The notes under the pieces are model-generated. The model ran no database searches, had not been told where the DNA came from, and saw only the letters and a program-made list of their open reading frames with translations. From Gemmatimonadota bacterium (GTDB taxonomy: Bacteria; GCA-2686955): DNA of 16,501 nt. The DNA lies in NCBI GenBank assembly GCA_002686955.1, contig NYZA01000181.1:1-16501 (forward strand). The letters are read 5' to 3'. How positions within the stretch are numbered: the stretch's first letter is position 1; the number at the start of each line of letters is the position of its first letter. This document shows positions 12,212 through 16,327 of the stretch, one piece after another. A program made the translations under genes and the position numbers.

Positions 12212-12271
12212 ATGCGGTCGAAGGGATCGAGGAGGTGTTGGTCGCGACAGACCGAGCCGTCGAAGAACGAC

Positions 12272-12449
12272 CCTAGGGTCGGCGAAGAAATGGCTTCCCG
12301 GGTTTGCGTCCAGATGTGCCGCAGATCTGGTCAATCGGTGAGTTCCGAAACCGGAGGAGTAGCAGCGCTACTTCGAGGATTTCGGGGCTCGCCGATCGGC
12401 CGGAGATGGGATGCAAACATGGGAAGTTATTTCTTCGCCGACCCTTAGG
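12272..12449 (+). repeat. 178-nt imperfect palindrome, candidate structured RNA or miniature palindromic element
   Basis: The two halves pair almost end to end around an AGC loop (12364-12366). Outer stem: 12275-12311 with 12409-12445, 32 Watson-Crick pairs, four G/T and one G/A mismatch. Three more pairs at the tip (12272-12274 with 12447-12449) sit beyond a one-base bulge. Middle: an asymmetric internal loop (12312-12333 and 12397-12408). Inner stem: 12334-12350 with 12380-12396, 17 pairs of which three are G/T. A small internal loop follows, then an 8-bp apical stem (12356-12363 with 12367-12374) with one G/T. The left tip also forms a perfect 12-base palindrome GACCCTAGGGTC (12269-12280). 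Fifteen bases later is the ATG of a glycosyltransferase, with its GGAGG site outside the stem. It could be a 5' leader structure or a dispersed palindromic repeat; no second copy is seen in this window. Confidence 0.85.
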
Positions 12450-12464
12450 AACTCCGGAGGAAAC

Positions 12465-13700
12465 ATGCCGGCAGCGCTGGTTCCAACGCTGCATATCGAG
12501 GGCGCGATCGACGGTGAAGGGGGCTCCTTCCGCAGCCTCACTGGGTTGCTGGAGAGGATCGATCGTTCCCGCTTCGAGCCGGTCGCTCTCTTCTGCCGCG
12601 CCTGCGAAGCGGCAATGCGCCTTCGGGAGCAGGGACTCGATGTCTACGTGCTCCCGGAACCTCCACGCCGCCCTCTGGCATCCGGGCGGGTGGAGTTCTA
12701 CGCCGAGCTCCTCCGCGCGACACTGAAGTGCGCGGGGATCATTCGGTCCCTGGAGCAAGGCCGCGGCTCCTCTTTTGGCGTGATTCACACTAACGATCAA
12801 CTGGTCACCAACGCGGGATGGATTGCCGCGGCTCGAATGTTGAGGCGAGCGGTGGTATGCCACGAGCGGCAGCATGGTGACTTTCGAACGGTCCATCGAG
12901 CGCTGGCCTCCGGTATCGCCGCGCATGTGCGGATCTCGGCATCGGTCGACGCGCATTGCCGGGAGCATCGCATACGCGCAAGACGAAACACGCTGGTGTA
13001 CAATGGTCTAGCCATTCCGTCCGCCGCGGAGAAAGCGGCGGCGAGAGAGCGCGGCGCCCGTGTCCTCGCGGAGCTTGGAGTGGGCCCCGGGGCTCCGGTG
13101 CTCCTGTACGCGGGCACCGTGGCATCGTGGAAGGGGACCGATTCAGCCGTGCGCGCCTTCGCGGCGTTGCGCCCTGGAATGGGCCGGCCGGAGCCGATTC
13201 TGGTGCTGGCGGGAGAGGCTTCGGCAGACGCACCGAGCTGGCCGAACGAAGTTGAGCGACTCTCGCGGGAGCTCGGCGTCGCGGAGAGGCTGAAATGGGT
13301 CGGTCGGCGCGACGATGTGACCGATCTGATGTGCGCTTCCGATGTCGTGCTTCATGCGGCGGTTCGGCCAGAGCCCTTCGGGCGGGTTCCTCTCGAGGCG
13401 ATGGCGTGGGGTGCTCCCGTTGTGGCAACCGACACCGGAGGCGTGGCGGAGGTGCTGGGAGAGGAGCATCCGGGGTTGGTTCCGGCGGGGCGCCCCGGGG
13501 CGATGGCGCGGGCGATCGAAGAGGTCTTGGAGGGGGGCGGAGCGACCGTGGCCGCGGTGGCAATCGGCGCCGAGCGCGCGGAGGCTAGTTTCTCGATCGA
13601 GGCCCACGTGCGGGAGATGGAGAAGATCTTTGGTGCCGCGGCGGGGGTGTCCGATGAGCGGCCGGAGCAGCGAACGGACCCGGTCCGGAGCAGCGAATGA
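12465..13700 (+). CDS. GT4-family glycosyltransferase, first of a pair
   Basis: A 411-residue, presumably cytoplasmic GT-B enzyme starting at ATG 12465, four bases after GGAGG. The N-terminal domain has the glycine-rich acceptor loop GAIDGEGGSFRSL (13-25). The C-terminal nucleotide-sugar domain carries LLYAGTVASWKGTD (213-226, Lys223 as phosphate-binding residue), LKWVGRRDDV (276-285) and RPEPFGRVPLEAMAWGAPVV (301-320). Within the latter, Glu303 and Glu311 make the E-x7-E signature of retaining GT4 transferases. DTGGVAEVL (323-331) completes the pattern. It should transfer a sugar from a nucleotide donor to a lipid-linked or surface glycan; donor and acceptor cannot be read. Its stop overlaps the next glycosyltransferase gene by four bases (ATGA). 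The long palindrome lies directly upstream and may control it. Confidence 0.88.
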   Translation: MPAALVPTLHIEGAIDGEGGSFRSLTGLLERIDRSRFEPVALFCRACEAAMRLREQGLDVYVLPEPPRRPLASGRVEFYAELLRATLKCAGIIRSLEQGRGSSFGVIHTNDQLVTNAGWIAAARMLRRAVVCHERQHGDFRTVHRALASGIAAHVRISASVDAHCREHRIRARRNTLVYNGLAIPSAAEKAAARERGARVLAELGVGPGAPVLLYAGTVASWKGTDSAVRAFAALRPGMGRPEPILVLAGEASADAPSWPNEVERLSRELGVAERLKWVGRRDDVTDLMCASDVVLHAAVRPEPFGRVPLEAMAWGAPVVATDTGGVAEVLGEEHPGLVPAGRPGAMARAIEEVLEGGGATVAAVAIGAERAEASFSIEAHVREMEKIFGAAAGVSDERPEQRTDPVRSSE

Positions 13701-15790: not shown

Positions 15791-16081
15791 CACCCGGGCG
15801 GTGACAAACGGCTCCTGCGGCTGATCGGCTGCTACCTGCGGGCAGGAGTGTGGACGGACTACGGGCTTCTCGCCACGACGAAAGGGGTACCTCAGGGTGG
15901 CCCTCTTTCGCCCTTGCTGGCCAACGTCATCCTCGACGACTTCGACAAGGAGTTGGAGAGGAGAGGTCACCGCTTCGCGCGCTATGCCGACGATGTGATC
16001 ATCGTCGTCGGTAGCAAACGCAGCGGTGACCGCGTGCTGGCCGGCGTCACACGATGGCTCGAACGCGAGCTCCACTTGGAA
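15791..16081 (+). pseudogene. Internal fragment of a group II intron-type reverse transcriptase
   Basis: About 97 codons in plus frame 2 match only the palm core of group II intron-encoded reverse transcriptases. Visible are DKRLLRLIGCYLRAGV, then GVPQGGPLSPLLANVILDDF, then DKELERRGHRFARYADD with the catalytic YADD box, and then SKRSGDRVLAGVTRWLERELHL. The N-terminal RT motifs, the thumb, maturase and endonuclease parts are all absent, whereas full proteins run to over 400 residues. Sequence before about 15791 is not RT-like, and at about 16081 it changes abruptly to AT-rich DNA; the frame stops at 16111. No intron domain V could be found. This is therefore a dead remnant with both ends missing, and cannot be a functional enzyme. 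Confidence 0.8.
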
Positions 16082-16327
16082 CAAATGCAACATAAGAGAA
16101 GTGTCTACTAAATCGGGGGAAGGTCCGTTTTCTTCTGTATCAATTACCGGACCAGAGGGACCATCCCATGCATACCCCTTTTTAACCAGCAGATTTCCCT
16201 TTATGTCTAAATCGATAAAATCTGTTTTTACATCAGAGTGTGGACCGAAAGGAATATTGATTTTGTAACTGTTTGCCAACTGGTATTTATAGTCAGCCCT
16301 GTAGCTTATATGTCCTTCTGTAGCCAT
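16082..16327 (-). pseudogene. Truncated phage-type DUF1353-like gene
   Basis: On the minus strand from ATG 16327, with GAGGG about eight bases ahead. The N-terminal portion (about 82 residues) reads as a small phage/prophage-type protein: GHISYRADYKYQL, then KTDFIDLDIKGNLLV, then KKGYAWDGPSGPVIDT (49-64). This resembles DUF1353-type proteins as I recall them, where a SLxHDALYQ-like segment follows; here TSLMLHLFQ may be its degenerate counterpart. The frame then runs into the antisense of the RT fragment, so the C-terminus is lost. By hand count 16081-16320 is 40% GC, far below the surrounding DNA, which indicates foreign origin. The family assignment is from memory of motifs and moderate in certainty. 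Confidence 0.6.

Follow-up and report, generated by a model that had tools for sequence, protein, structure and literature searches.

A dispersed palindromic element of MITE-like character with a core that appears to evolve as a strand-specific RNA hairpin

The question raised by this locus is what a very long palindrome is doing directly upstream of a glycosyltransferase gene in a Gemmatimonadota bacterium. The window, which is the whole stretch of 16,501 nucleotides analysed here, had been described in a first-pass annotation made from the sequence alone as containing at this point a near-complete palindrome that might be a miniature palindromic mobile element, a large leader structure or a new structured RNA. 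The palindrome proved real and well outside chance expectation: positions 12262-12459 have a predicted folding energy of -124.8 kcal/mol, whereas shuffled sequences average -69.3 +/- 4.4 (z = -12.8, equalled by none of 200 shuffles), and the 37-nt arms at 12275-12311 and 12409-12445 form the top inverted repeat of the whole window. The stem geometry given in that annotation was essentially correct, but it missed that the outer arms and the inner hairpin follow different evolutionary rules. When 37 near-full-length copies are aligned together with their flanks, the window copy falls at 12276-12444 (169 bp, from GGGTCGG... to ...CCGACCC) on the + strand, which for the element denotes the strand on which the core folds best. 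It comprises a left terminal inverted repeat (GGGTCGGCGAAGAAAT...; 12276-12301, +), the first ~16 bp of which are present even in minimal copies of 40 bp, a right terminal inverted repeat (12419-12444, -) recognised by comparison of copies and by its co-variation with the left arm, and a strand-specific inner hairpin, the putatively RNA-like core (12306-12414, +), delimited by the G-U and A-C counts, the covariation and the conservation in a second genome that are described below. CTA at 12273-12275 and TTA at 12445-12447, neither assigned to a strand, represent the 3-bp TNA duplication of the family with one mismatch. The nearest relative, at locus L002, has 11 nt of the 3' arm that the window copy lacks near 12396-12405, between two AGATG repeats, and this deletion accounts for the unequal inner stems of the window copy. 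At locus L002 (2538-2774, contig C17 of the same genome) there is a 237-bp copy whose core contains foreign sequence and whose two arms differ in type (GGGTTCGCGCGAG / CTCTTCGCCGACCC). Outside the element, GGAGG at 12456-12460 precedes the start codon of the GT4-type glycosyltransferase gene (12465-13700, +; Pfam PF00534/PF13692).

A BLAST search of the source genome (4.28 Mb, 270 contigs), which the first-pass annotation had recommended, gave 50 matches at ~40 places, several of the reverse matches being the same palindromes read from the opposite strand. When up to one mismatch is allowed, the end motif GGGTYSGCGMARRAA is present 217 times in this genome and eight times for the reversed control, and it is therefore estimated that there are roughly 100 elements. 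At least 56 copies could be delimited by pairing ends within fetched regions; their lengths run from 40 to 237 bp and peak at 179-180 bp, full copies being mostly 179-182 bp. These copy numbers rest on searches and on fetched regions of the source genome and are lower bounds, since the ends of contigs C125, C138, C65, C244, C156, C55 and C150 fall within or beside the element, which thus adds to the fragmentation of the assembly. The terminal inverted repeats of ~16-27 bp start with GGGT(C/T)(C/G)GCG at both ends, so that copies end in GGG...CCC, and an end with its flanking target reads TNA-GGGTTCGCGCA.... The terminal ~16 bp are common to every size class, and the 40-bp minimal copies consist of two ends and an 8-bp loop, with TAA duplications still present. 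Arm positions 17-27 are highly variable among copies and usually match within any one copy. At three loci (L008 ~1485-1502, L049 1563 and L084 1466) a lone outer end adjoins a complete element via a common TTA/TAA (...GCGCGGACCC-TTA-GGGTCCGCGC...), and such ends may be left over from neighbouring insertions or from excision.

The flanks record how the copies arrived. A perfect 3-bp flanking repeat is present in 30 of the 56 copies, compared with a shuffling expectation of 11.0 and a maximum of 21 in 5000 shuffles, while 4-bp duplications are found in merely 2% of copies; the target consensus is C-TNA-G. Three copies have one flank in common, which proved to be another dispersed repeat, and joined flanks match an uninterrupted 147 bp at four other places with 95-97% identity. 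These empty places (C73, C8, C166 and C163; ...CTCGACTAAGACC..., with CCAAGGCC in C163) carry a single TAA, or CAA in one of them, and the occupied copy in C125 (...CTCGACTAA[181 bp]TAAGACC...) carries two, so that insertion with a 3-bp duplication is shown directly. The second dispersed repeat (CCATGCGCCTCTTGGCC...GGCGGATCCTGG) is ~150 bp long and is found in more than 15 places (loci L054-L057, L005, L050, L024 and L029; contigs C73, C8, C166, C163, C125, C81, C65 and C138), and in several of them its TAA holds the palindromic element. A fold-back assembly artefact is ruled out by the copies on many contigs with different flanks and by the clean empty sites. The suggestion of a miniature palindromic mobile element has therefore been upheld by the dispersed copies, the target duplications and the empty sites: the palindrome is a dispersed, non-autonomous, MITE-like DNA transposable element of ~180 bp and not a leader of the glycosyltransferase gene.

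The element is shorter than 500 bp, multi-copy and without coding capacity, and it has the attributes of a MITE apart from a named autonomous partner, which was searched for and not found. The source assembly, which is 84.5% complete, yielded no cognate transposase; its profile matches were two to PF01609, both without the element's ends, none to PF13586 or PF05598 and one fragment to NF033580, and inspection of the fetched unpaired ends produced no autonomous partner. IS5-type elements with TNA targets (the IS1031 and ISL2 groups) make a 3-bp TNA duplication and have G-rich inverted ends. Duplication and ends of this kind are what is seen here, which is a lead and not membership: no IS5-type transposase gene with the element's ends was found in the source genome, and the element is therefore not filed as IS5-derived. 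Rfam gave no match to the element at gathering or relaxed thresholds, and DNA searches of the same-family genome G001 and 58 others found no copy, nor did searches of plasmid, phage and viral collections. Among viral sequences the end pattern matched only once (L143), inside a phage gene, and this was dismissed as a chance hit. The RNA covariance model R1 had no match in 144 other genomes.

A larger transposon is found within the palindrome arms. This insertion sequence (IS) of 2.44 kb encodes a 182-aa HTH protein and a Transposase_29 protein of 572 aa (PF21804, E 2.5e-190); it is complete in C108 (locus L149, C108:61500-66805, the IS extending from ~63504 to 65944), where it has the ends CAGACCTCCTGATCTCGGG and AAGTT on either side, with pieces in C99, C102 and C22 and end fragments in C131 (locus L048) and C3. 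All seven IS ends seen adjoin AACTT/AAGTT (once GACTT) of a palindrome arm, and in at least five places the IS sits at AAGTT inside the arms. Homologues in genomes G149 and G210 have AAGTT on both flanks, the one in G149 being a single fused 728-aa frame. Residues D148, D239 and E343 are invariant in four Transposase_29 homologues, which would suit a DDE enzyme. It was at first suggested that this IS might be the autonomous partner, since the copies in C99, C102, C22, C108 and C131 start with the palindrome's outer arm, but AAGTT at both ends in C108, G149 and G210 ruled this out, and the palindrome interior on the other side of the C108 copy also speaks against it. The IS has terminal repeats (CAGACCTCCTGATC...) unlike those of the palindrome and a different target rule, and the palindrome is therefore a landing site for the IS and not its derivative. 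In the window copy the pentamer AAGTT lies in the right arm at 12424-12428 (+), its left-arm counterpart at 12292-12296 reading GGCTT. REP/BIME sequences are likewise landing sites of insertion sequences (PMC1525189) and QMITE2 is hit by IS1111 (PMC10969869), but the present palindrome is longer than REP/BIME and has TNA duplications, and the IS belongs to another family. REP/REPIN sequences are hairpins of 20-40 bp mobilised by RAYT (HUH) enzymes without target duplication, whereas the present element has 180 bp and a 3-bp duplication and is not classed with them.

The two parts of the element evolve in different ways. When the 37 near-full copies were oriented by their apex and aligned, the sense strand gave the more stable fold of the inner part in every copy (37/37; mean -79.4 vs -50.3 kcal/mol), and the outer arms were balanced between the strands (20/37). 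The outer ~27-bp arms co-vary without strand preference, as expected of DNA inverted repeats; arm types switch as wholes, and both G-T and A-C intermediates are present among them. Double changes in the core pass via G-U (CG-UG-UA, UA-UG-CG, AU-GU-GC), whereas those in the arms pass via both kinds. Among non-Watson-Crick cells there were 325 G-U and 11 A-C in the inner part, compared with 48 and 33 in the outer; because a sense-strand consensus fold would itself avoid A-C, the count was also made on the union of pairs picked on either strand, and gave 327 G-U vs 25 A-C for the inner part and 50 vs 51 for the outer. None of 500 shuffles and no slid control reached the covariation seen in the source genome. 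Within the inner ~123 nt there are eight fixed G-U pairs, two modules of tandem G.A pairs (AGAU/AGAU), each position of which is present in 30-37 of the 37 copies, and, at the apex, a conserved motif (ACCGGAGG-stem-CGAGGAUU). The strand difference of -29.0 kcal/mol compares with -9.3 in shuffled sequences, so that composition explains only part of it, about a third. The alignments show that the inner ~123 nt keeps its base pairs as one strand would read them, G-U being accepted and A-C not. The suggestion of a new structured RNA finds support in this inner part only, as an evolutionary signal read from sequence; the outer arms behave as DNA inverted repeats.

An important consideration is at what point such selection would act. 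Core pair types confined to one copy include 11 G-U and 9 A-C, whereas core changes common to at least two copies comprise 93 G-U vs 2 A-C when counted in cells, the corresponding figures for the arms being 40 and 25; the copies are related, however, so that cells are not independent events. Counted as distinct inherited pair types, the inner part has 14 G-U vs 3 A-C and the outer 13 vs 10, a difference that is not significant alone (Fisher P 0.10). Of the 37 copies 35 are intergenic, and the flanking genes, called with a simple codon model, occur in every orientation relative to the core. As inherited changes favour G-U, private ones do not and there is no gene-orientation bias, selection seems to act during spread and not after insertion. 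It looks as if the fold is filtered among copies that leave descendants, rather than being kept for each copy's neighbours.

A second genome, G149, from the same domain and distant, was reached via the Transposase_29 IS, and in it the end motif occurs 147 times vs 13 in the control. Its copies include homologues of 181 bp, minimal ones of 40 bp and longer forms that carry additional GC palindromes. A covariance-model search of relatives, also recommended at the outset, recovers these diverged copies: model R1, made from the source genome only, detects them with E values down to 7e-15 and on the strand that the apex predicts. The middle stem has been wholly replaced in G149, but the apical motif is kept, as are the lower stem, three G-U pairs and one of the AGAU/AGAU modules, and the joint covariation of both genomes is above all controls. 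The sense strand was more stable in 13/13 copies, oriented with a model that itself includes the structure, and the strand difference was -18.1 kcal/mol vs -7.9 shuffled. For loci L249 and L206, RNA energies gave z -5.1 and -4.8 on the sense strand vs -1.9 and -1.1 on the antisense, and with DNA energies the strands were alike (-2.0 and -2.1 vs -2.4 and -2.1). The outer arms in G149 also lean to G-U (36 vs 11, with one mis-oriented copy in the alignment). Small GC palindromes (GTCCCGCGTACTGCGCGGGAT; CATGTAGGGGCACGGCATGCCGTGCCC) are inserted in the arm or loop at L215, L219, L226, L229, L248 and others, and the longer forms look as if palindromes were nested inside palindromes.

An RNA-level role of the core in the propagation of the element is, on this comparative evidence, probable. 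A transposase acting in trans would cut at GGG/CCC and join the ends to a staggered TNA target; the core would be transcribed from one strand and the transcript folded, a protein might bind the folded core through its conserved internal loops, and the protein-bound RNA would make the copying or survival of the source element likelier. Given the GGA repeats at the apex, CsrA-type proteins are one speculative candidate for such binding. Selection would then fall on source copies, inherited core changes respecting RNA pairing and single-copy changes not. The more specific proposal, that the spread of a DNA transposable element depends on its own strand-specific RNA hairpin (as guide, cofactor or protein decoy), conserved in two distant genomes, is advanced tentatively. 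Counting against a need for the core are the minimal copies of 40-57 bp, which have duplications and lack the core; they are either later deletions or a sign that it is not strictly required.

These observations have to be weighed against the view that the element is an ordinary MITE, in which the palindrome would derive from terminal repeats and from template-switch "correction" of quasipalindromes in replication, and the strand bias of the core would reflect the history of one founder and composition and not selection. The outer arms fit such a history, with whole arm types changing jointly and both intermediates occurring; size classes of 40, 57, 87-98 and 151 bp resemble deletions across a hairpin, composition yields its share of the strand difference, the eight fixed G-U pairs could stem from one founder, and folding is generally predicted for the transcripts of MITEs (PMC10969869, PMC2229807). 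Template correction should, however, erase the core's G-U pairs and G.A modules, private changes do not behave as inherited ones do, and the strand bias is seen again in G149, whose core is hardly palindromic as DNA any longer (antisense z between -1.1 and -1.9). Such an origin is unlikely, though by no means negligible. The core might instead be recognised by a recombinase as a folded single DNA strand, like IS200/IS605 ends, REPs and integron attC sites. Tandem G.A pairs are stable in DNA as well, and strand specificity without gene orientation bias would follow, but the equality of the two G149 strands with DNA energies, and a fixed 3-bp TNA duplication with inverted ends that points to a double-strand mechanism, make this quite improbable.

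It is more doubtful still that the copies are a host-domesticated RNA family, some of which yield a useful small RNA or mRNA element for which the fold is kept. The conserved apical GGA/GA motif, the covariation and the largely intergenic location would be in keeping with this; the lack of orientation bias to neighbouring genes, private mutations that disregard the structure and the failure of R1 in the 144 other genomes are not. As for a leader or riboswitch dedicated to the glycosyltransferase gene, the large leader structure of the first-pass annotation, the window copy does lie in sense orientation and ends 20 bases before the start codon, but many copies adjoin unrelated genes in all orientations and the window copy has a deletion in its core. 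A dedicated leader is refuted, and an incidental effect on that gene is possible.

The element resembles a number of bacterial MITEs with fully folded bodies, namely Correia/NEMIS, ERIC, RUP, BOX, Nezha and Chunjie (PMC10969869, PMC2229807, PMC3049150): it falls in the range of 100-250 bp, has terminal inverted repeats and duplicates its target, its copies number in the tens to hundreds and are mostly intergenic, any transcript is predicted to fold, and it has no transposase. It differs from them in its TNA duplications (the table in PMC2229807 gives TA at the termini of several), in a body that is palindromic throughout, in the GC-rich genome and in its core, where, unlike in the arms, pairing appears to be under selection on one strand. 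Transcripts of Correia, ERIC, RUP and BOX fold and sometimes affect mRNA (PMC2229807, PMC3049150, PMC10969869). The BOX element of Streptococcus pneumoniae is likewise a small repeat, some copies of which are transcribed and whose RNA secondary structure was predicted by aligning copies, but it is modular (boxA-B-C), unlike the present element, which has no Rfam match; the words "covariation" and "compensatory" are absent from the BOX paper (PMC3049150). Folded MITE transcripts have been described for decades, and it is hard to test whether a fold is selected or a by-product of inverted repeats. The arms and core of one element provide an internal control, the arms drifting as DNA and the core apparently as RNA, with selection visible in inherited changes only. 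If the proposed role of the core is true, this is a very small DNA transposon with an RNA participating in its life cycle.

Elsewhere in the window, at 15848-16111 (+), a reverse transcriptase of the group II intron type (RVT_1, E 2.9e-14, with a YADD motif) is present as a truncated fragment adjoining a HAD-family gene.
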